Source: a virus
Length of the DNA: 24,431 bases
Reading direction: 5' to 3' (one strand)
IMG/VR virus record: IMGVR_UViG_3300020205_002612
Coordinates: 1 to 24,431 of that record
The notes under the pieces are model-generated. The model searched no databases. It saw only the letters and a program-made list of their open reading frames with translations, and was not told the origin of the DNA. Position numbers and translations under genes: made by a program. Positions 1,579 through 24,431 of the stretch are shown here, piece by piece. Numbering within the stretch: the first letter of the stretch is position 1; each line of letters starts with the position of its first letter.

Positions 1579-4470
1579 ATGCCACTAAATGTATGGACTA
1601 AGCCCACAGGCTGGAATTTTGGACAACAACCTGGAACTAACATATCAGTTGCTTCGGGTAATTTTATTGTGGGTTATCAGTATGTAATTCAAACAGTAGG
1701 TACTACTGATTTTAAAAAAATTGGAGCAGCATCAAATTTTGTAGGAATCATCTTCACAGCAACGAATAACGGTGCAGAAGCAGGCCCTATTGAAACTGTG
1801 ACTATATACCCAGACCCACTTAATTTAGCAAATCAATATGAAAGAACTACTGTGTCACCGGGTACCGGAGTTGCTTCAAGGTTAGCGTTTAGTGAACGTA
1901 AAACTTTAGAAATTTCATTACCTGTAGAAAACAGTACAGGAGTAATTTATAATATTATTTCAGGTAAACTTCCTCCTGGATTAAGATTAGAATCTAACAA
2001 AATTGTAGGTTCTGCTTTTGAAGTGCCGCGTGTTACCGATTTTACATTTTGTATTAGAGCTAGTAAAGATGGACAAATTTCTGATAGAACATTTACAATA
2101 ACAATCGAGGGCGAAGATAAACCTGAATTTGTTACTCCTGCCGGTCTTTTAAATATTGGCGACGATAAAGAATTATTTGTCATGGACGGCAGTTATGTTG
2201 ATTATCAATTACAAGTTATAGACAACGATACAACCACTGGACAAAAATTAAGTTATTTTATAGCACGTGGGGACGGTGAGTTGCCGCCAGGACTAATCTT
2301 AACTAATGATGGACGTATTGTAGGATTTACTCAACCCACCCTAGCCATTAGACCTGAAGATGGTGATGGAACTTACTCTAATAGCTCATACGATGCAGTT
2401 GCATACGATTTTGCATTTGTTCCAACAAATGGATATGACAGTTATATTTACGATAGCGTGTTTTTTGATTTTGCTTTACAACAAAATAGACCCCGAAAAC
2501 TAAATCGTACATACGAGTTTGCAATAACAGTTACAGACGGCGATAGTTTTTCTAAACGTAAATTTAAAATATTTGTAGTTGGGGATGATTATTTCCGTGC
2601 TGACAACACAACTTGGCTCGATGGCGACAGTTTATTCACTGCTGACGTAACTTACCTTCGTCCCCCAACTTGGATTACTTCAAGTTATTTAGGTTTATAC
2701 AGAGCTAATAACTACATTACTCTTATATTAGACACATACGATACAGAAAATGTAATATACAGTTTAGAACAAATTAATGCCGATTGCAGAGCAAAAACTA
2801 GAAAAATTGCATCTGGTGATAACTCGATTGGAGGATACTATGTATCCATCACATTACCAACTAGTACTCCAGTTATAAACAGTCGATTAACTTTTGCAGG
2901 ACTTGTTGCAGGTTCAACAACTGTTCATTCAGTAATTAACGTAGTTTCATTGCCCAATAACGAATTTCGGTTAACATTGTATGAGCCATTACAAAGTAAT
3001 ATTCCTGATGAAGTTGATTTTTTAATCGGATCATTAAGTCAACTGCCGCCAGGAATGGCGTTTGATGAAAATAATTCAGAAGTATTTGGTTTAGTTCCTT
3101 ATCAACCTGCTATTACAAAAACTTATAAATTTACTGTTACTGCTGCAAAAATAAGTGATAGTGGCGAATTTGCAAAATCACCAAAAGTATTTACAGTAGA
3201 CTTACTCGGCGAAGTTGATAGTATACTATCGTGGGACTCGCCTAGCGATTTAGGAACGATCAACGCTAATTTTGTTTCAACACTAAGCGTTAAAGCAAAT
3301 TCAAATATTGCAAATAATACAATACTTTATACAATAACTAGTGGACGTTTGCCGCCAGGACTAAGTTTAGACCTCGACGGGGAGATTATTGGAAAAGTAA
3401 ATCAATATGCTACACTAGATTCTTTGGACAATATAATTTCATTAGGGTTAACTACATTTGATTTTACAACTGATGTAACTACGTTCGACGGTGACGATTC
3501 TAGTATTGATAGAACTTACGAATTTACAATTAAAGCCCAAGACCTATATGGTTATAGTGCAATCAGTAAAACTTTTAGAATTTCTGTCGATACTCCTAAT
3601 CAATTAGTTTATAGTAATATAAAAGTAAAACCTTTCCTAAAAACATCACAGCGAAATACCTGGCGAGAATTTATTAACAATGCTACCATATTTTCTCCAC
3701 TAAGCATCTATAGGCCAAATGATGAAAATTTTGGCATTCAAACCGAATTGTCAATGTTAGTGTTTGCTGGTATTGAAACTAAAGAGGCGGCTGCGTATGT
3801 AAGTGCAATGGGTCTAAATCATAAACGTAAAAGATTTCACTTTGGAGAAATTAAAAAATCCACAGCATTTGTTCCTGGAACCAAGACTGCTGTATATGAA
3901 GTAATTTATGTTGAGATGTTAGATCCGTTAGAACCTAACGGAAAGAAATTAGCTAACAAAATTGAAAATCTTAGTTTGCAACCTAAAAAAATAACAGTAG
4001 ATGCTAACAATTCAATTTGGAGTAGAAACCTTTCCGATCTAATTGAAGACGAACCGTACAGAGAAAGACCAGATCAAATTATAACTGTAGACAGTCAAGG
4101 ATATGAAGTTTCCAACCCTAATCCTTCTACATATTTTCCTAACAGTATTTCCATATGGAGAGATCGTTTTAAAAAATGGACTAACGGAAATGAAAGTTTT
4201 AGTGTTGAACGTAATTATTTGCCTCTATGGATGCGTAGTATACAGCCTGGATCCAAGCAAGAAATTGACTTTCAGTTAGCTGTACCGCTTTGTTATTGCA
4301 AGGTTGGCACAGCTGATGATGTTTTGTTAAACATTAAAAATTACATAAAAACAACAGGTTTTACTTTTAATCAGCTAGATTATACAGCAGATCGATACAT
4401 AATAGATTCTGTTGAGGGATTAACCGCAGATAAATACCTAGTATTCAGAAATGATAGGATAACCATATGA
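1579..4470 (+). CDS. Large virion protein with four putative-Ig (He_PIG-like) repeats
   Basis: A 963-residue protein, no TM segment. Residues 32-70 form a small module (YVIQTVGTTDFKKIGA ... FTAT) that recurs in the next gene. Four units have the signature LPPG[LM]-x-[LF]-x(4-5)-[IV]-[IVF]-G followed by a Thr/Phe-rich beta segment: residues about 130, 235, 489 and 591. This is the hallmark of the putative Ig family (He_PIG, PF05345), found in surface and phage adhesion proteins. Between units 2 and 3 lies a roughly 170-residue stretch of other sequence (2590-3020), perhaps an inserted domain. The C-terminal 280 residues are non-repetitive and richer in charged and aromatic residues, so they may be the anchoring domain. 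The stop overlaps the next start (ATGA). A tail-fibre or baseplate component is inferred. Confidence 0.75.
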   Translation: MPLNVWTKPTGWNFGQQPGTNISVASGNFIVGYQYVIQTVGTTDFKKIGAASNFVGIIFTATNNGAEAGPIETVTIYPDPLNLANQYERTTVSPGTGVASRLAFSERKTLEISLPVENSTGVIYNIISGKLPPGLRLESNKIVGSAFEVPRVTDFTFCIRASKDGQISDRTFTITIEGEDKPEFVTPAGLLNIGDDKELFVMDGSYVDYQLQVIDNDTTTGQKLSYFIARGDGELPPGLILTNDGRIVGFTQPTLAIRPEDGDGTYSNSSYDAVAYDFAFVPTNGYDSYIYDSVFFDFALQQNRPRKLNRTYEFAITVTDGDSFSKRKFKIFVVGDDYFRADNTTWLDGDSLFTADVTYLRPPTWITSSYLGLYRANNYITLILDTYDTENVIYSLEQINADCRAKTRKIASGDNSIGGYYVSITLPTSTPVINSRLTFAGLVAGSTTVHSVINVVSLPNNEFRLTLYEPLQSNIPDEVDFLIGSLSQLPPGMAFDENNSEVFGLVPYQPAITKTYKFTVTAAKISDSGEFAKSPKVFTVDLLGEVDSILSWDSPSDLGTINANFVSTLSVKANSNIANNTILYTITSGRLPPGLSLDLDGEIIGKVNQYATLDSLDNIISLGLTTFDFTTDVTTFDGDDSSIDRTYEFTIKAQDLYGYSAISKTFRISVDTPNQLVYSNIKVKPFLKTSQRNTWREFINNATIFSPLSIYRPNDENFGIQTELSMLVFAGIETKEAAAYVSAMGLNHKRKRFHFGEIKKSTAFVPGTKTAVYEVIYVEMLDPLEPNGKKLANKIENLSLQPKKITVDANNSIWSRNLSDLIEDEPYRERPDQIITVDSQGYEVSNPNPSTYFPNSISIWRDRFKKWTNGNESFSVERNYLPLWMRSIQPGSKQEIDFQLAVPLCYCKVGTADDVLLNIKNYIKTTGFTFNQLDYTADRYIIDSVEGLTADKYLVFRNDRITI

Positions 4471-7169
4471 GCAGCCAAATAAACGAAACAAACATTGATA
4501 TTACGTATCCAGTTGCCGGAAAAGACAACGATAGCCAAGGCTTTCGTGATAATTTTTCAACAATTAGAACGAATCTTACCTATGCAAAAACCGAAATAGA
4601 AGAGTTACAAAATAAGGTTTTATTAAAATCGAGATTAATAGGAGACTCCGGAACCGACATTCCGTTTGTCAACGACCTTGGAGGTAGCAATCTTTCTAAC
4701 GGTAGTCATACTAATTTTCACGGAACTGCGTATGCTCCTGGAACTGCGTCAGGCTCTGCCAATATCGATGTTGAAAAAGGATCACTACAATCATTTACAT
4801 TAGCTGCAGATACAACATTTACCTTTACTAATTGGCCTGATAGCGGAAATTATGCCAAAGTTAGAGTACATTTTAGAAGCAATGGTTCTGCTGTGTCGGT
4901 AGGAAATGATGTTATAGAAGGTAAGCGTTATACTATTAACGAAGTAAACACTACAAATTTTATTACCATGGGAGCCGATCCAACTGCTGTGTTTACAGGT
5001 AGCATTACTGGAAACACTCTTACAGTTAGCAGTATCACTTCAGGAACATTAGGATTAAACACTTATATTATAGGAACTGGTGTATCTGCAGGAACAAAGA
5101 TTATTGTTACGAAAAACGAAAATCCCACATTAGGTACTAACGAATTTACTGTAGACATCGGTACCCAGTCAGTTGCGCCTAATACACCTATGAAAGGTAT
5201 AACAACCGGCGTAACTTTTACAGCTATAACAAAGGGCAGTGGCACTGGAACTGTTAAACCTTGGAAATCTGTTACATTATCTACAGAAAATTCAGGAACT
5301 ATTACTAGCGATTCTGATTTTTCTTTACCACTTTTACTAAATCCAAATGGCGCTGACCAAGTAATTGAAGCATGGACATGGACTGGAAATTTAGCGAAAA
5401 AGATTTATGTAAATTATATTAGTAATTTAGATATAGAATCAACTAACTATACCAATTTAAAAGTTGGCTCTTTAAGTGTAGATGAACTTACTAATTCTAC
5501 AACCAACACTACAGGTGCTTTACGAGTTGCAGGCGGTGCTGGAATTGCAAAAAATCTAAACGTTGGCGGAAACACAGTAATTAGTGGAAATTTAACTGTA
5601 ACAGGAAATACTACATTAACAACTAGTTCTGTTACGATTGCCGATATAGGATCGATTGCTAACGTAAGCATTACAAATCCAAGAACAGGTGATGCGTTAA
5701 AATATAACGCAGGTACAAACAACTGGTCAAACAATGTTGATTTAGTTACATACCAAGTAATTGTTGATGACAATGGCAGTGGTGTACAACCAGTGTTTCA
5801 TATCAACAATGTTCCATTATCTACTAATACAGGGGTGCAAGCAAGTGCTCTTAAAACTTTTAAAGCAGGAAGGAAATATAGATTTGTTCAACAAGATACG
5901 TCAAACAATGCATATCAGTTAGCATTTTCTACCAAACCAGATACAGTTGTTAATCCTGATAATTTACCAGGCGAGCGAACAATTTTAGATTACTCGTCAA
6001 ATGTAACGTTCAGCACCGGAACTGGTATTAACAAGTATACTGAGATATTAGTTACCGAAGATACCCCAAGCCCATTGTACTTGTATGCAAAACAAGCAGA
6101 TCGAGAATTAGAAGCTGGTTTCAATCTTAGCAATTTAGTAATTACAGGAACACAAGGCCAGATACAAGTAGCCAGTTGTACCTTAACTACTAATCAACCA
6201 ATTAGAATTACAGGAACATGGAGCGGAACTGGTAGTTTATTTGGCTACCAAGCTGCAGGAACACTTTATTATATTAAAACTGGCGGTACTGGAACAACCT
6301 TTCAGTTATTAGTTACACCTGGCGGATCTCCTGTACAATCTACAGCAGGTACTCCAAACGGAACGTTACTGACAGTTTCTGCTATGATTGGTGCTGGCAG
6401 TTATGTAGAAACATCAAAGGTCGGCGGAGAATATCCAATTACAGTCAACGGTGGCCCTGTTAAAATTCTTAAAGATTATGTAGTTCCAGGAACTCAAAAT
6501 GTATTAGCAGATACTACAAGTAATGCTATTACTATTACATTACCAACAACTCCAACTGTTGGAACTACTATTAATATTTTTGATGCTGGCAATGCTGGTA
6601 CTAATCCTATTACTATTGAACCTGGTGATGCTCTTATTAATGGTGTGAGCGGAGATGTTAGTATATCTGGCGACTACGGTGCGATGACTTTAGTATGTGA
6701 CGGAATTAACTGGACTATGGCGAAACTTTCATTCAACGGAAGTGAAGACGTGGTTTCTTCAGGTTCAGTTAGTTTAAATACATCAGTAAGCTACTTTAGC
6801 ACATCTGGTACCGAAACTTGTACACTGGCAGACGGTACTGAAGGTCAAGTTAAATCTCTAGTGATGAAAAATGCTAGCGGTGCAATGACTGTATCCGTTT
6901 CAAATGCAGGTTGGAAATCTTCTGGCTCCGGTACTATTGCATTTAATTCCACTGGCGATTCTTGCACGTTACAATATATCCAAGGCAAGTGGTATGTGAT
7001 TGGCAATAATAGTTGTGTTATTGAAGGCTTGCAACCTGCAGAAGTTGTTAGTGCTCCAAGTACTGCTAGTTCAACTGGACTTGCTGGACAGATAGCTTAC
7101 GATAGTTCATTCATTTATGTTTGTATTTCTGCAAACACTTGGAAACGTGCGAGTATCGCAAGTTGGTAA
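4467..7169 (+). CDS. Long tail-fibre-like protein (900 aa) with modular beta repeats
   Basis: The protein begins with a helical-looking head (residues 12-50, DSQGFRDNFSTIRTNLTYAK) resembling the N-terminus of the 196-residue protein at 976. Residues 150-265 hold the YxIxEV-TT-F-x-MGA ... FTA-x-GSGTGTV module, interrupted at about 177-242 by a second module with TGNTLTVSSITSGTLG and IGTGVSAGTKI. Around 5500-5640 is a repeat segment (TGALRVAGGAGIAKNLNVGG, then GNLTVTGNTTLTT) typical of marine phage fibres. Further GTG/TGS-rich modules follow (6130-6400), and the end (6990-7169) carries short Ser/Thr/Ala-rich sequence. Composition is almost entirely small and polar residues. A receptor-contact fibre is the likely role, by family resemblance and context. 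Confidence 0.75.
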   Translation: MSSQINETNIDITYPVAGKDNDSQGFRDNFSTIRTNLTYAKTEIEELQNKVLLKSRLIGDSGTDIPFVNDLGGSNLSNGSHTNFHGTAYAPGTASGSANIDVEKGSLQSFTLAADTTFTFTNWPDSGNYAKVRVHFRSNGSAVSVGNDVIEGKRYTINEVNTTNFITMGADPTAVFTGSITGNTLTVSSITSGTLGLNTYIIGTGVSAGTKIIVTKNENPTLGTNEFTVDIGTQSVAPNTPMKGITTGVTFTAITKGSGTGTVKPWKSVTLSTENSGTITSDSDFSLPLLLNPNGADQVIEAWTWTGNLAKKIYVNYISNLDIESTNYTNLKVGSLSVDELTNSTTNTTGALRVAGGAGIAKNLNVGGNTVISGNLTVTGNTTLTTSSVTIADIGSIANVSITNPRTGDALKYNAGTNNWSNNVDLVTYQVIVDDNGSGVQPVFHINNVPLSTNTGVQASALKTFKAGRKYRFVQQDTSNNAYQLAFSTKPDTVVNPDNLPGERTILDYSSNVTFSTGTGINKYTEILVTEDTPSPLYLYAKQADRELEAGFNLSNLVITGTQGQIQVASCTLTTNQPIRITGTWSGTGSLFGYQAAGTLYYIKTGGTGTTFQLLVTPGGSPVQSTAGTPNGTLLTVSAMIGAGSYVETSKVGGEYPITVNGGPVKILKDYVVPGTQNVLADTTSNAITITLPTTPTVGTTINIFDAGNAGTNPITIEPGDALINGVSGDVSISGDYGAMTLVCDGINWTMAKLSFNGSEDVVSSGSVSLNTSVSYFSTSGTETCTLADGTEGQVKSLVMKNASGAMTVSVSNAGWKSSGSGTIAFNSTGDSCTLQYIQGKWYVIGNNSCVIEGLQPAEVVSAPSTASSTGLAGQIAYDSSFIYVCISANTWKRASIASW

Positions 7170-7410: not shown

Positions 7411-7914
7411 ATGCAATTAGACAAATATAGTAATCCAATTTTTAATGAGCAAGATTTATTTGATGCTTTATATCATGGGCATCAATTTTCCGCTGACGAC
7501 ACTATACTTATTGAGCGGACTGATGCTGTTAAACAACTAGAATCACAAATTGGCTTTAAATTAGCAGAGCCCTACGAAACCCATTTTGATGTAACAGACT
7601 ACGACAAGGCTTGCCAGTCTTATTGGAATATGCCTGATGAATACAAAAATATGGACATCGAATTGTTTCTAGTACAACACAGTGAAGAACAAAATTACCA
7701 AAGATTAATGGATGAGTTAGCAGCATACAAAGCAAGAAATATGCTAGACCTCCTTCGTTGGCTTAAATATTTTGTAGATACTTGCTCAAAAGAGGGTGTA
7801 GTATGGGGTTTAGGGCGTGGATCTAGTGTAGCCAGCTATGTATTATATATTATTGGTGTTCATAACATCAATCCTATCAAATATAATTTAGACTGGCAGG
7901 AATTCTTGAGATAA
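7411..7914 (+). CDS. Orphan DNA polymerase III alpha (DnaE)-like fragment
   Basis: The last 70 of 167 residues align by eye with the start of the DnaE palm. A YxRLMDEL segment and a helix ending in FVDTCSKEGVVWG lead into GLGRGSSVASYVLYIIGVHNINPIKYNLDWQEFL. The counterpart in bacterial DnaE is GPGRGSxAGSLVAYxLxITDxDPLxxDLLFERFLNPER, and the GRGS part is the nucleotide-site motif. The ORF stops right after the FERFL-equivalent. It therefore lacks the PDxDxDF segment that supplies the catalytic aspartates, and also the fingers and beta-clamp region. It cannot be a polymerase alone. The first 95 residues are acidic and not recognised. No continuation exists in other frames downstream, and a new SD and gene start follow. 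A decoy or binding partner of the host replisome is conceivable but unproven. Confidence 0.7.
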   Translation: MQLDKYSNPIFNEQDLFDALYHGHQFSADDTILIERTDAVKQLESQIGFKLAEPYETHFDVTDYDKACQSYWNMPDEYKNMDIELFLVQHSEEQNYQRLMDELAAYKARNMLDLLRWLKYFVDTCSKEGVVWGLGRGSSVASYVLYIIGVHNINPIKYNLDWQEFLR

Positions 7915-19849: not shown

Positions 19850-20221
19850 ATGCGTATTAGAGAACTATTAGAAGGTAAAAAATTTAACGATCTGGACTTT
19901 GTCAACGTGGACGAAGATGGTACTAACATCAACTATGATTTAGTAGAAGATCTAGCGTTTTATATGCACAATGACGATGACATGTATAGACACCATGTTT
20001 TCCCAAGCGTAATGCAATGCGTTAGTGGGATGAAATCTAAAAAGAATTTAAGCCCAAATGTTTTTAAAGCAGCTGTAGAAGAAAGTTATAAAAACTACGT
20101 TAAAAAATTCCCCATACGTCAATTACCAACTTCACTAGATGAAGAACTATGTAATGAAGTTTGTAAAAAATTACATGATGATTTTCGTAAAGACTACGAA
20201 GACGGCAAGTATAAGGATTAA
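19850..20221 (+). CDS. Conserved phage protein, 123 aa, with capsid-targeting-like leader
   Basis: It begins MRIRELLEGKK, sharing the M-x-[IL]-x-E-[LI] pattern with three other genes in this block; L6-L7-E8 is a possible prohead-protease site. The body is acidic, helical and soluble (YDLVEDLAFYMHNDDDMYRHHVFPSVMQC; FKAAVEESYKNYVKKFPIRQLP) and ends KLHDDFRKDYEDGKYKD. Similar proteins are common in T4-like marine phages, with no assigned function, from memory. It is the first gene after the late promoter at 19796. A small internal head protein is my inference. Confidence 0.72.
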   Translation: MRIRELLEGKKFNDLDFVNVDEDGTNINYDLVEDLAFYMHNDDDMYRHHVFPSVMQCVSGMKSKKNLSPNVFKAAVEESYKNYVKKFPIRQLPTSLDEELCNEVCKKLHDDFRKDYEDGKYKD

Positions 20222-20223
20222 TT

Positions 20224-21456
20224 GTGTTACTTAGAGAATTATTCTTTAATGAAGCAAAGGCATCTGCTGAAGACGACAGCATGGAGAAATACGGGCGGCC
20301 GTTTAATCACCCGGAACATTTCGTATTTTTTAAAGGTTCCAAGGGTACTATAGAAGCACTTAATCACTTTAAAGAAATTGCCACTGAACAACCAGGCGAA
20401 ACTACTGTTAGAGGTAAGTGGGACGGCAATCCTCAAATATATTGGGGTAGAGAAGTTGCTGGCGGGCCGCTAATCCTAGCGGGTCATAATCAATGGTCAC
20501 GCGGAGTTAAAGGCGACAGCAAAGAAGCAGTATACGACTTTGTTGCTAATCAAAGCGGCAAAGCAACAACACCTAAAGAAGTTAAACAACGTCAACAATT
20601 TGCTACTAATTTTAGCAATCTATATCCCATATTTGATGCTGCCACACCCAAAGACTTTGTAGGCTTTGTGTATGCTGACAGTTTGTTCGGCGTTGATCCA
20701 GCATTGAATAAAGAATTAATTCCAATGGAAGGTTATCCAAAGGGGGTCTGGACGTTTGCTCCTAATCCAAACAGTAAAACAAGATATTATGTAGATGCCG
20801 ATCCTGCTAACAGTCAGTTAGGAGCTCGTATTGCCAGGGCTAAAGTTATGGTTGTAGGTCATGCTAAGTTTGACACGTATGGCGCTGGGGATAAAGAACA
20901 ACAGCCCATTGACGACTTTAGTATGTTTGATAATACTCCAGGGTTAATAGTTCAGGGTCCTGTATACACTAGCACAGGCAGTGGTCAAGACACCACAGAG
21001 ATTGATGATATAATCAATCAAGTGATTGATGAGGTATCCGGAGTAGGGGCTAACCTAGATGCATTTATTGCCAGTTTACCCGACCCAGATAAAAACGGAA
21101 TTTTTTATCCATTCTTTAATGCTATGAGCGGACTACATGCAAGGAACGAACAAGCGTTTGACAGTATAACTGGTGATACATTTACCGGGTGGATGCTTAA
21201 AAAGGGTGTTAGTAAAAACAAGCAAGCACACATTATTGAAATGATCAAAGCCCATCCTGGTGCATTTGATTCAATGCTACGGTTAATCAAAGATATTAGA
21301 AACATGAAAGATCAAGTATATGCCGCATATAAAGGTCAAGGTCGACCAGAGATATGGGACACCGACGGTGAAGGATACGTTAGATATGCCAATCCCGAAA
21401 AGCATAAATATGGTAATATAAAGATTGTTCCTACTACGTGGGCACCTGGACGTTAA
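20224..21456 (+). CDS. KxDG-motif protein, possible nucleotidyltransferase/ligase-like virion enzyme
   Basis: A 410-residue protein starting at GTG 20224, two bases after the previous stop, with aagga upstream. The N-terminus MLLRELFFNEAKA fits the leader pattern of its neighbours. TTVRGKWDGNPQIYWGR (about 61-76) contains K65-x-D-G, the motif I form of ATP/NAD-dependent ligases and capping enzymes. FVGFVYADSLFG (145-156) sits where a motif III-like acidic strand might be. WTFAPNPNSKTRYYVD and ARAKVMVVGHAKFDTYG follow. The C-terminal half (about 255-410) is helical with LIKDIRNMKDQVYAAYKGQ. It recalls a T4-like phage domain of unknown function (DUF6267-like, from memory). Catalysis is unproven, since motifs IV/V are not clear. 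Confidence 0.65.
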   Translation: MLLRELFFNEAKASAEDDSMEKYGRPFNHPEHFVFFKGSKGTIEALNHFKEIATEQPGETTVRGKWDGNPQIYWGREVAGGPLILAGHNQWSRGVKGDSKEAVYDFVANQSGKATTPKEVKQRQQFATNFSNLYPIFDAATPKDFVGFVYADSLFGVDPALNKELIPMEGYPKGVWTFAPNPNSKTRYYVDADPANSQLGARIARAKVMVVGHAKFDTYGAGDKEQQPIDDFSMFDNTPGLIVQGPVYTSTGSGQDTTEIDDIINQVIDEVSGVGANLDAFIASLPDPDKNGIFYPFFNAMSGLHARNEQAFDSITGDTFTGWMLKKGVSKNKQAHIIEMIKAHPGAFDSMLRLIKDIRNMKDQVYAAYKGQGRPEIWDTDGEGYVRYANPEKHKYGNIKIVPTTWAPGR

Positions 21457-21457
21457 C

Positions 21458-22462
21458 ATGCGATTAAGAGAATTATTTGAAAATATCTATGAACAAGTAC
21501 CCGAAGGCGGCGAAGAGCACGATGGTGGTTTAAAAACCATTGGCATTTGTTACGGACGTTGGAATCCTCCACATCGTGGACATAGAGATGTTTGGAAATC
21601 TGCTAGTAAAAATCCTATATGGTTTGTAGGTACTAACGAAAACACAGAAGGTCCTAAAGACCCGCTACCCTACGAAGTTAAATTACAATGTATGGCTGCT
21701 GTTTGGCCCGGCGTTGCTGGTCATGTAATACCAGAACAAGATTTATTTGTAATGGCTACTAACATTTATGAAAAGTATGGTGAAAATGTTCACCTGAATG
21801 TTTATACAGACGAAGAATGGTTAGCAAGTAGTTTATTAAAATACAACGGCATGATGAATCAAAAGCATGGCGGTTATAAATTTACACAGATTGACTGGAA
21901 GAAGACTGAAAGAAAAGCTCGTGCTACAGATTTACGTGCTTATGTTCGTGCTGGAAACAAGCAGGCATTTTACAAAGATGCTGGCATTCCTGCTTCGTCA
22001 ATGATCACAATTGGTGAGAAATCTTATCCATTGTTTGACATTGTAGCTCATTATCTAAACAAGTATCCTGAAAAGGTTACTAAGAATGCTGCTAAAGCAA
22101 CTGTGGCAGAAGCTACACGAGCAAAGATTACTCACAGACAATCTCAAGCATCTAGAGGTATTAGTACATATGGCGATGCAGAAAAAGCCAATGCTGATTA
22201 TGTTGCTTTCAAATTAGGACAAGCAATGGCCTGCACTGACGGAACTAATACACCGGACATGGACGCTAAAAGTTGGCACGGAAAACGTAAAACAGTACAT
22301 CCTTATACCGATGTTGAGCAACAAATGTTTATCAAAGCAGCCAAAGTAGTTGGTGCCGATGTAGAAGACGTTAACCACGGGGATATGCGTAGTTTAGAAT
22401 TAGATACTACAAATAAAACTAGTCCTGTAGCAAAAACTAAAAAGAACAAATACGGAGTATAA
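21458..22462 (+). CDS. HxGH nucleotidyltransferase (cytidylyltransferase/NMNAT-like)
   Basis: ATG 21458 is chosen one base after the previous stop; it yields the leader MRLRELFENIYEQ that matches its neighbours and the T4 Alt leader type. The 334-residue protein has TIGICYGRWNPPHRGHRD (about 27-43) with the H39-x-G-H42 nucleotide-binding motif. A Rossmann-like stretch (IWFVGTNENTEGPKD) follows, then ARATDLRAYVRAG at 154-166, which resembles the second signature (ISSTxxR) of the family. Such enzymes join a nucleotide to a phosphate, as in NAD or CDP-compound synthesis. The last 110 residues are Lys/Thr/Ala-rich and not part of the fold. The substrate is not readable. Confidence 0.8.
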   Translation: MRLRELFENIYEQVPEGGEEHDGGLKTIGICYGRWNPPHRGHRDVWKSASKNPIWFVGTNENTEGPKDPLPYEVKLQCMAAVWPGVAGHVIPEQDLFVMATNIYEKYGENVHLNVYTDEEWLASSLLKYNGMMNQKHGGYKFTQIDWKKTERKARATDLRAYVRAGNKQAFYKDAGIPASSMITIGEKSYPLFDIVAHYLNKYPEKVTKNAAKATVAEATRAKITHRQSQASRGISTYGDAEKANADYVAFKLGQAMACTDGTNTPDMDAKSWHGKRKTVHPYTDVEQQMFIKAAKVVGADVEDVNHGDMRSLELDTTNKTSPVAKTKKNKYGV

Positions 22463-22463
22463 C

Positions 22464-22901
22464 GTGGACGAGAAATATCATTTAGCATTGAAAACAGCAT
22501 TTGCCAGCTCATATAGTTTTGTACTTAAAGCACAAAACTTTCATTGGAATGTCGAAGGGCCTTTATTTGTACAGTTACACGAACTGTTTGGAAACATTTA
22601 CGAAGAAGTATACGGTAGTATTGATACATTTGCCGAAGAACTTCGAGCACTACAAGTATATACTCCTGCTAGTCTTCAAAAATTTAGTATGTTGTCGCTA
22701 GTACAAGACGAAAACGAAATAAAAGATTTTCAATCCATGTTACGCGAACTGTTAACAGATAGTGAAAAAATGGCACAACTATACAAGGTAGTATTTGATA
22801 TGGCTGAAACAAATGGAGATCACGGGCTAGCAGACTTCTTTGCTGGACGACAAGACGCACATAAGAAACATAGCTGGATGTTAAGAAGCTGTTTAAAATG
22901 A
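22464..22901 (+). CDS. Dps-like ferritin (DNA-protecting, iron-binding)
   Basis: A 145-residue protein starting at GTG 22464 after GGAG. The dinuclear iron site is complete with exact Dps spacing: H27 and H39 (12 apart), D54 (15 further) and E58 (4 further), in FHWNVEGPLFVQLHELF and GSIDTFAEEL. Five-helix ferritin-like hydrophobicity, no signal peptide. Dps shells take up iron with peroxide and protect DNA. In a phage it could guard host or packaged DNA from oxidative damage, or store iron. It shares an ATGA overlap with the next gene and sits beside putative head proteins, but lacks the leader itself. Confidence 0.88.
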   Translation: MDEKYHLALKTAFASSYSFVLKAQNFHWNVEGPLFVQLHELFGNIYEEVYGSIDTFAEELRALQVYTPASLQKFSMLSLVQDENEIKDFQSMLRELLTDSEKMAQLYKVVFDMAETNGDHGLADFFAGRQDAHKKHSWMLRSCLK

Positions 22902-23191
22902 AACAATATAGGATTACCACAGAGCATTTAACTCAAGACAGTCCAGACGACTGCTATCTTGCTCCAGATGATCCTGTGCATGAATTAAAAGCCATACAGC
23001 ATTTAGCAGGACTAGGAAGTAATGCTAGATTGCATGAATATAAAGTTAATCAAGGTAGTAATATATCAGTAACAGGAATGCAAAATCAGGAACTTGAAAG
23101 AAAACATAAAATTAGACCTGGTACTCCTGAGTGGTTTCAACTTTGGTTTAGTTTGCCTTATTTGACAGGCGAAAAGAAGGTAGGAAAGTAA
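22898..23191 (+). CDS. Small conserved phage protein, 97 aa
   Basis: It starts in an ATGA overlap with the Dps stop. Hydrophilic, with ITTEHLTQDSPDDCYLAPDD, VHELKAIQHLAGLGSNARL and GTPEWFQLWFSLPYLTGEKK. One Cys, no TM or signal. The sequence is remembered as recurring in marine T4-like phages near head genes. Function unknown; position next to Dps suggests co-expression only. Confidence 0.68.
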   Translation: MKQYRITTEHLTQDSPDDCYLAPDDPVHELKAIQHLAGLGSNARLHEYKVNQGSNISVTGMQNQELERKHKIRPGTPEWFQLWFSLPYLTGEKKVGK

Positions 23192-23192
23192 T

Positions 23193-23462
23193 ATGAAGAT
23201 TACAGAAATTATTACAGAAACTGCAACAGCTGGATCAACAAGTGCTGGTAATATTGCCTCTGTGGATGCTCCGCATATTAGTCCGGGCAAATCACGCGGT
23301 AAAACAAGCTATATAGGCAATCCATGGGGTGGAATATCAGGCACTAAAGCCCCTAAACAGCCTAAAATCAAACAAAAAAAGAACAAAAACGGAACTGCTG
23401 TTAATGCGTTGGACTTAAAAGGTACAAGCATTTTCGGCGGTAAGACTATTAAAAGACGCTAA
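23193..23462 (+). CDS. Small basic Gly/Ser/Lys-rich protein with capsid-targeting-like leader
   Basis: An 89-residue protein. MKITEIITETATAG fits the leader pattern, with I7-T8-E9 as a possible prohead-protease cut. The rest is disordered, basic and Gly/Ser/Lys-rich (PGKSRGKTSYIGNPWGG; KQPKIKQKKNKNG), ending GGKTIKRR. Short basic disordered proteins with such leaders fit DNA-neutralising internal head proteins. The stop overlaps the late-promoter motif at 23459. Spaced one base after the previous gene. Confidence 0.68.
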   Translation: MKITEIITETATAGSTSAGNIASVDAPHISPGKSRGKTSYIGNPWGGISGTKAPKQPKIKQKKNKNGTAVNALDLKGTSIFGGKTIKRR

Positions 23463-23486: not shown

Positions 23487-24431
23487 ATGCAAGATATGCA
23501 ACCAGATAATATGAACCCAGCTGCGCACACAGCAGCGGATGAAGCCAACCACGATCGTGAAGGCGCAATGGCAAAAGCAGATTTACATAAGCTAGCCAGC
23601 TACAGTCTAAAACTGTTTAAAAAATTAGACGACGAAGCTCAACTCGAAGGATGGGTACAGGCTAAAATTACCAAAGCCGCTGACTACATTGCCAGCGTAT
23701 ATCACTATTTAGAATACGAAATGGAATTTAGTGATTACGGTGCTAAGTTAGACAACAACGACATGTATACTGAAGACCAGAAAATTGCTATTAAAAATAA
23801 ATTAATGGAAGCTAAATCTAAGATTGCAGAGCTTAAAAAGACTCAAGCAGAAAAGATGAAAGCTAAAGATTCTAAGAAAGTCGAAGAAGGTGCATTGTCA
23901 GGTGGTGAGCGTCCGTGTGCAGAATGTGGTGGCAGTGGAATGGTTTACGAAGAACCAAAAGCAGTTCCAGATCATGTTAAATCTAAAGTTGAAAAGTACA
24001 ATCGTTTAACTAAAGCTACTCATGCAGCTTCAAAACGTTTAGATCGTAACAATAACGGTATTCCAGATAATCTAGAAGACAAACCAGTTGACGAAGAATT
24101 TGGTGGTAGCGATAAGGAAATGAAAGTTGGTGACAAAAAGAAAACTCGCACAGGTGAATTGACTAAAACGTCTACTGGTGTAATGCATAAGAACACTAGC
24201 TATGCAGATGATGGCGATGCTGAAGACAAATCCGGCAAAGGTAAAAAGAGTCACGCTAAGGCACAATCAGCTGCTGAGAAGAAAGAAAAAGCTCCGGCAC
24301 AAAAGATGTCTCCAAAAAGTGCTAAGACATGGGGTATGAAGGATGGTGAAAAATTTGACAACCGTGATAAAGCGGTTGATGAAACTTTAGGGCAAGGCGT
24401 ATACGCAGAAGGTAAAGGCAAAAAGCCAGAT
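23487..24431 (+). CDS. Charged helical virion-type protein, 3' end outside window
   Basis: The frame is open from ATG 23487 (after CGGAG) to the right edge, at least 315 residues. The order is a polar start, then a helical domain (about 30-85) with LHKLASYSLKLFKKLDD and GWVQAKITKAADYIASVYHY, a segment common in marine T4-like head/core genes from memory. A Lys/Ala coiled coil is next (about 105-135). After that comes CAECGGSGMVYEEP, like half of a DnaJ-type zinc knuckle, and DRNNNGIPDNLED, a calcium-loop-like D-x-N-x-N-G-x-x-D. The remainder is a low-complexity Lys/Gly/Asp/Thr tail. Late promoter and position suggest a scaffold/core or internal head protein; this is inference. Confidence 0.75.
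   Translation, partial: MQDMQPDNMNPAAHTAADEANHDREGAMAKADLHKLASYSLKLFKKLDDEAQLEGWVQAKITKAADYIASVYHYLEYEMEFSDYGAKLDNNDMYTEDQKIAIKNKLMEAKSKIAELKKTQAEKMKAKDSKKVEEGALSGGERPCAECGGSGMVYEEPKAVPDHVKSKVEKYNRLTKATHAASKRLDRNNNGIPDNLEDKPVDEEFGGSDKEMKVGDKKKTRTGELTKTSTGVMHKNTSYADDGDAEDKSGKGKKSHAKAQSAAEKKEKAPAQKMSPKSAKTWGMKDGEKFDNRDKAVDETLGQGVYAEGKGKKPD

Follow-up and report, generated by a model that had tools for sequence, protein, structure and literature searches.

Four of the six consecutive genes at positions 19850-23462 of IMGVR_UViG_3300020205_002612, a 24.4-kb fragment of a freshwater T4-related phage (24,431 nucleotides, the whole of which is referred to here as the window), open with a common N-terminal leader, M-x-[IL]-x-E-[LI]-[LFI]-x(0-2)-E, which is probably a lineage-specific capsid-targeting leader of the kind found on the internal proteins (IPs) of T4. 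The tagged genes, numbered 1 to 4 (Table 1), include those for a DUF6267 protein (gene 2) and an NMNAT-like cytidylyltransferase (gene 3), and two further genes, one of them Dps/ferritin-like, stand untagged between genes 3 and 4. The capsid-targeting reading is supported because leaders resembling those of the T4 IPs occur in the same block of sister contigs and because leader-bearing homologues of gene 3 have been detected in virions, and also because leaderless homologues are missing from published virion lists. We hold packaging into the prohead of the window phage to be likely to much the same degree.

The shared leader itself is confirmed. A general expression for it, M.[ILVMF].[ED][LIFVM][LIFVM].{0,3}E, matches 4 of the 32 curated proteins of the window against 0.034 expected after shuffling of N-terminal residues (0/20,000 shuffles reach 4), and four random genes of 32 would sit within a run of six with a probability of 0.0076; because this expression was composed after the leaders were seen, the p-value is optimistic, and counts in relatives therefore carry more weight. 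Homologues of gene 1 have the leader in 56/56 cases, those of gene 2 in 56/58 and those of gene 3 in 41/57, several of the gene 3 homologues missed by the pattern carrying MRAKEF[IVL]xE or M[KR]LRQ[LI]FE. Relatives of the interleaved Dps gene (0/32) and of the interleaved gene for a 97-residue protein (0/30) never have it. Sister contigs (G002-G005 and G007-G012) encode 3-5 leader proteins each, nearly all within the cassette block, and no comparable leader set was found in the jumbo relatives Phosso (0/697 proteins, whole genome) and CBB (2/500 proteins, covering 320 kb, most of the genome), the open reading frame (ORF) caller behind these background counts being a simple one that may misplace starts. 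These results bear out the initial annotation, which had reported that four unrelated proteins of the block share a leader and that the interleaved genes at 22464 and 22898 lack it, had taken this lack to speak against mere composition bias, and had proposed the scan of relatives. Chance or composition as the source of the leader was rejected on the shuffles.

Comparison of codons and residues among distinct relatives (32 for gene 1, 35 for gene 2 and 23 for gene 3) indicates that selection acts on the leader at the level of the peptide. Its residues show little or no variation in all three genes even though most of their codons differ synonymously, and the next 10-15 residues form a hypervariable linker. 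Residues 2, 6 and 8 of leader 1 are invariant, with 2-5 synonymous codons each; leader 2 has invariant residues 3-7, and E10 in 91% of relatives; and residues 3-5, 7 and 8 of leader 3 are invariant. A conserved DNA element in place of a peptide was rejected, given the synonymous changes under fixed residues. The predicted structure of the gene 3 product has a helix at residues 2-8, then a linker modelled with low confidence that reaches roughly residue 23, and a well-predicted core, and in L003, L007 and L008, where about 65 residues are inserted between leader and enzyme core, the leader still stands at the extreme N-terminus. A common N-terminus with no targeting function, spread by recombination of gene starts or produced by composition, would fit the adjacency of the genes and the similar codons that their leaders have in places (agagaattatt), but the fixed residues with varying synonymous codons beside a hypervariable linker, the interleaved genes that are never tagged and a shuffle expectation of 0.03 all speak against it, and this explanation, already disfavoured, strikes us as highly improbable.

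The leader also moves between unrelated proteins. The slot of gene 4 holds dissimilar proteins of 89, 139, 170, 183, 201, 211 or 216 residues, and nearly all of these open with it or with something very close to it; on sister contigs these starts include MKIMEILSE (183 residues), MKVTEILNE (211), MKIIELLGE (139), MKMRELVNE (216), MKITDLDES (201) and others. G001 is a T4-type phage distinct from the window lineage, sharing one domain with it and possessing both an S77 protease gene and a Gp23 gene; it encodes the C-terminal domain of gene 3 as a separate 128-residue protein (61% identity) with a leader of its own, MKIRDLFERK. DUF6267 proteins are leader-bearing in the window, leaderless in P-HM2, S-SZBM1 and S-CREM2, and carry a leader-like extension in Melnitz. 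Neither gene 4 nor the stand-alone C-terminal domain had a tblastn match among cultured phages.

In T4, IPII and IPIII begin with MKTYQEFIAEA, IPI with MKTFKEF and Alt with MELITELFDE; ten N-terminal residues of IPIII are enough for packaging, positions 4 and 7 mattering for targeting and positions 8 and 10 for processing (PMC9026906). Like this T4 capsid-targeting sequence (CTS), the window leader is an N-terminal segment of about ten residues, common to otherwise unrelated proteins, that ends in [LI]-x-E and has hydrophobic residues around a conserved glutamate. All leaders fit the core E-h-h-x-E, where h is hydrophobic (EFIAE in the T4 IPs, ITELFDE in Alt, ITEIITE in the window, EFIAEA in a sister contig), at a displacement of one residue from IPIII. 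Because the core is the same and the offset is a single residue, we regard the window leader as a variant of the T4 CTS and not as a member by sequence. Its hydrophobic residues lie at positions 3, 6 and 7 and its glutamates at 5 and 8-10, and a pattern on the IPIII positions (hydrophobic at 4, 7 and 8, E at 10) does not match it. On sister contigs, leaders in the same cassette as the MRLRELFE proteins include MRAKEFIAEAT (L035), MRAKEFVIEAK (L007) and MRAKEFITEHT, with MRAKEF[IVL]xE present in several; the first of these has EFIAEA in common with IPII and IPIII. Unlike the T4 CTS, the window leader is one residue shorter before the first glutamate, its genes lie in one cassette, and in place of Alt or small basic internal proteins its cargo includes a DUF6267 protein and an NMNAT-like enzyme, among others. 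Head propeptides of the phiKZ/SPN3US type resemble it in being N-terminal, inferred to target inner-head proteins and cut after a glutamate, but show no relationship in sequence, and most of them span about 80-130 residues (PMC5694885).

By analogy with T4, cleavage of the leader after a glutamate by a gp21-type protease is plausible. Sites of the gp21 type, [LI]-x-E, occur at residues 3-5 of all four leaders (IRE, LRE, LRE and ITE), a second site lies at residues 6-9 of three (LLE, LFE and ITE, with FNE in gene 2), and most gene 2 relatives carry [LFYI]-x-E at residues 8-10. The T4-like leader proposed by the initial annotation is strengthened by a near-verbatim IP leader on a sister contig and by three homologues detected by mass spectrometry (MS), and qualified by the register shift; its sites at residues 6-9 of three leaders stand, FNE need not be an exception given LRE at residues 3-5, and its placing of the cut in T4 Alt at the second glutamate needs correction, since Alt is cut at ITE-6 (PMC5694885). 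It is also conceivable, if unlikely, that a capsid-targeting leader is left uncut, its bearers entering the head at full length as DNA-associated or structural core proteins: the last leader glutamate differs in position by gene (E8, E9 or E10), and the virion tables of S-CREM2 and S-SZBM1 give no mature N-termini. Against this, every leader contains [LIF]-x-E sites, the domain junction of gene 3 has a site of similar form, and trimming occurs in both Alt and the IPs of T4 (PMC9026906, PMC5694885).

Virion evidence comes from cyanophage cytidylyltransferases, which are of the same enzyme family as gene 3, at low sequence identity, and have a leader at the same place. Three of these were detected by MS in CsCl-purified virions: S-SZBM1 gene 140 (PMC9146016 Table 1), S-CREM2 ORF154 (PMC10665884 Table 3) and S-SCSM1 ORF91 (PMC9602691). 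Their leaders are MRFRQFIIEA, in the same register as the window leaders, MKNFSSFLTE and MKSFLQFLKE, respectively. In S-CREM2, a pattern on T4 IPIII positions 4, 7, 8 and 10 hits 5/52 virion proteins versus 0/175 other proteins (p=5e-4, two of the five leaders, of ORFs 154 and 136, having been seen before the pattern was fixed), a looser pattern tried first having given 5/52 versus 2/175 non-virion proteins (p=0.008). The matches include all three virion enzymes that the authors name 'regulatory': a SAM (S-adenosylmethionine) hydrolase (MKDFDSFLEE), a kinase (MKRFDAFLTE) and the cytidylyltransferase. A kinase of S-CRM01, also reported in virions (cited in PMC10665884), begins with MISFDQFLSE. 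The leader bears on a doubt raised in the cyanophage literature, whether such enzymes are cargo or contaminants, because it is the tagged enzymes (SAM hydrolase, kinase and cytidylyltransferase) that MS detected.

Leaderless proteins give the complementary picture. Where cyanophages were checked, their DUF6267 protein, whether a neighbour or a homologue, is leaderless and outside the virion list; this holds for S-SZBM1_141, which adjoins the tagged enzyme, and for the S-CREM2 DUF6267 protein, and the leaderless homologue CBB_73 is not among the low-numbered ORFs in the listed rows of the partly available CBB virion table. The DUF6267 protein of the window, in contrast, is leader-bearing and is therefore predicted to be packaged in the window phage. 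Many virion proteins have no leader (e.g. S-SCSM1 ORFs 89, 90 and 92), and the tag would therefore be one packaging route and not the sole one. The accessible passages of the three cyanophage virion papers (PMC9146016, PMC10665884, PMC9602691) make no mention of a targeting leader, and literature searches, mostly outside subscription journals, found no paper in which virion enzymes of cyanophages are connected with a capsid-targeting leader.

The block is flanked by a ClpA-like gene on one side and a gene for DNA polymerase on the other, the latter named from sequence and position with no family search, and a 110-kb sister contig has no Gp23 or S77 gene; for these reasons nearness to gp20-gp23, where the initial annotation had proposed to test for enrichment, is not shown. 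In favour of the capsid-targeting reading, the complete syntenic jumbo relatives Phosso, Atu_ph07 and CBB do have S77 protease and Gp23 genes, the annotation of Atu_ph07 between 250 and 400 kb yielding nothing useful. On no sister contig, these being incomplete records, were gp21 or gp23 found beside the block.

Related N-termini also occur on other proteins. At G001 35745-36509 and in L061-L063, a LysM/M23 peptidase with the leader MRAREFLKEE lies beside the stand-alone C-terminal domain of gene 3, near tail genes, and at G004 3665-4891 a LysM protein has the leader MRIKEIISEE. An Fe/Mn superoxide dismutase (L092:3133-3699 in G004, by Pfam match, and G002 62117-62680) has an N-terminal extension, MYNFIRYVSLNEG (MPFKFIKNVILNEN in G002), which may be another packaging leader. 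In S-CREM2 (OR473000 7704-13331), a Cas9-like nuclease, a 78-residue protein, a kinase and a 162-residue protein, all virion-detected, form a cluster; two of these have textbook T4-like leaders, and RFASFMAEA lies close to the N-terminus of the Cas9-like protein, whose start is perhaps misplaced.

Several points weigh against a capsid-targeting function. Neither the window nor its sister contigs, incomplete as these records are, carry a protease gene or any of gp20-gp23, and the core that would bind the leader is therefore not seen in the lineage; Phosso has no leader protein. The register is one residue off T4 IPIII, position 4 being R, T or similar and not hydrophobic. The window phage is known from sequence alone, and virion detection comes from homologues of one cargo; two of the S-CREM2 leaders were known beforehand, little weight attaches to the absence of a protein from a virion list, and the S-CREM2 authors note that abundant enzymes may co-purify with virions (PMC10665884). 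Finally, the leaders on the LysM/M23 peptidase of G001 and the LysM protein of G004 mean that a different compartment of the virion could be the tag's destination. The tag might then dock its bearers to a complex other than the head, for instance the tail or baseplate, an assembly of cytoplasmic enzymes, or a chaperone/protease system like that of the neighbouring ClpA-like protein, as the tail-gene neighbourhood of the tagged LysM/M23 peptidase (G001/G006), the position of the block after a ClpA-like gene and the lack of demonstrated proximity to head genes would allow. We nevertheless judge such docking improbable, since three cyanophages have leader-bearing homologues among their virion proteins while leaderless ones are not listed as such, T4 IP-like leaders occur in the same block, and an enzyme of the LysM/M23 kind may be part of the virion, or ejected from it, in its own right.

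Among the candidate cargo, gene 2 matches Pfam PF19782 from residue 28 on (E=1.9e-9, 37.8 bits against a gathering cut-off of 27), and its N-terminal 25 or so residues are an add-on missing from the leaderless homologues of P-HM2, S-SZBM1 and S-CREM2. DUF6267 is syntenic with the cytidylyltransferase in P-HM2, Melnitz and S-SZBM1; the cyanophage DUF6267 proteins were detected only by the Pfam profile, tblastn of gene 2 against cultured phages giving no match at 1e-5 and a divergent homologue as query only weak ones (E 0.1 to 0.4). KWDGNP, together with EGxV (residues 383-386) and KxV (400-402), resembles motifs I (KxDG), IV (EG) and V (K) of covalent nucleotidyltransferases (ligases), and KWDGNP is invariant or nearly so across 22 aligned DUF6267 sequences that include P-HM2 and Melnitz. 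These motifs suggest a ligase-like protein, which the fold search did not confirm: gene 2 had no PDB sequence match, and we do not claim ligase function because the structure model is of low confidence and gave no fold match. The weak GTG start of gene 2 is unusually fixed, being found in 35/35 distinct relatives.

Gene 3 belongs to phrog_3041, and 18/24 relatives match the Pfam family CTP_transf_like. Its PPHRGH is invariant in the alignment except for the second P and the R, and the structure model matches NadM/NMNAT in Foldseek (E 4e-5, prob 1.00); by this HxGH motif and the Rossmann-like nucleotidylyltransferase fold, the protein belongs to the NMNAT/cytidylyltransferase family. No reliable match came from profile searches of the PDB with either gene 2 or gene 3. 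The longest ORF of gene 3 runs from a TTG at 21425, the leader ATG standing at 21458. At the junction of its two domains, an [VLI]-x-E-[AGST] site recurs in relatives (VAEA in the window), and in L035, L036, L038 and L041 the fused protein keeps an internal MRA[KQR][ED]F[IV]xE there (MRAKEFIAEG, MRAQEFISEG and similar). This internal leader is likely to be the relic of a fusion of two tagged ORFs, and VAEA is a possible internal protease site. We tentatively extend this to a broader proposal, which we think somewhat doubtful as a whole: that the T4 superfamily has in common a slowly diverging address tag that ships enzymes in the head and by whose gain any gene can be enlisted, that a whole cassette with swappable small proteins is so tagged in the window lineage, and that the relic tag of the gene 3 fusion, after the glutamate of VAEA or of MRAKEFIAEG, would still be cut by the prohead protease and the domains separated within the head before injection.

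Under the capsid-targeting reading, the short amphipathic leader M-[RK/L]-[IL]-x-E-[LI]-[LFI]-x(0-2)-E on its flexible linker would bind the prohead core, and unrelated cargo, comprising the NMNAT-like adenylyl/cytidylyltransferase, the DUF6267 ligase-like protein and small proteins, would be enclosed in the prohead. A gp21-type protease would then cut after the leader glutamate, and perhaps also at the gene 3 junction. Exit of the cargo with the DNA into the host is plausible, and the delivered enzymes might act early, for example on nicotinamide adenine dinucleotide (NAD) or nucleic-acid ends. A short N-terminal pattern appears to predict which enzymes of the T4 superfamily travel in the virion, which would turn a T4-specific curiosity into a predictor and makes the NMNAT-like and DUF6267 proteins new candidates for injected enzymes. 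Leaders such as MRLRELFENIYE would offer ready-made natural tags with which the heads of phages that infect environmental hosts could be loaded with foreign cargo.

The cassette is set in a conserved backbone. The window carries a DnaE fragment, GroES, RFC, PhoH, two virion proteins, DnaJ, a deformylase and the ClpA-like ATPase, each of which, ClpA included, has its counterpart in Sinorhizobium phage Phosso (31-54% identity) and which also resemble Agrobacterium phage Atu_ph07; both are T4-superfamily jumbo phages with T4-type Gp23 and S77 genes. The cassette follows the ClpA-like gene and one 207-residue ORF (Table 1), and larger proteins come downstream, followed in sister contigs by the DNA polymerase. 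Unlike the window, Phosso and Atu_ph07 have no counterpart of the leader cassette at the same place and no DUF6267 match.

Table 1. Coordinates in the window of the tagged and interleaved genes, their leaders and selected motifs.
Feature	Position (strand)	Extent	Remarks
Gene 1, leader-bearing	19850..20221 (+)	123 aa	No Pfam match; conserved in alignment of relatives
Leader 1, MRIRELLE	19850..19873 (+)	residues 1-8	Protein start MRIRELLEGK
Gene 2, DUF6267 protein	20224..21456 (+)	410 aa	GTG start
Leader 2, MLLRELFFNE	20224..20253 (+)	residues 1-10	GTG start
KWDGNP of gene 2	20416..20433 (+)	residues 65-70	(Near-)invariant in DUF6267 alignment
Gene 3, NMNAT-like cytidylyltransferase (predicted)	21458..22462 (+)	334 aa	C-terminal domain of ~110 aa
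Leader 3, MRLRELFE	21458..21481 (+)	residues 1-8	Protein start MRLRELFENI
PPHRGH of gene 3	21566..21583 (+)		HxGH nucleotidylyltransferase motif
VAEA of gene 3	22103..22114 (+)		Junction of catalytic and C-terminal domains
Interleaved Dps/ferritin-like gene	22464..22901 (+)		No leader; Pfam PF00210, E=1.9e-20
Interleaved gene	22898..23191 (+)	97 aa	No leader
Gene 4, variable-cargo slot	23193..23462 (+)	89 aa	Protein start MKITEIITET
Leader 4, MKITEIITE	23193..23219 (+)	residues 1-9	

The Dps/ferritin-like protein is kept inside the cassette and is never tagged. The large post-cassette proteins (window 23487-24431 and downstream in G002, G004 and L007) look like further virion or core proteins; they have a KADLxKLAxYSxKLFKK region, found also in S-SM2 between gp16 and gp17, and starts of the forms MDMK[RK]ILQAxD and MD[IL]RSLI. 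The short ORF at window 7411-7914 resembles only a fragment of DnaE (polymerase III alpha) and is a separate gene in Phosso and CBB too.

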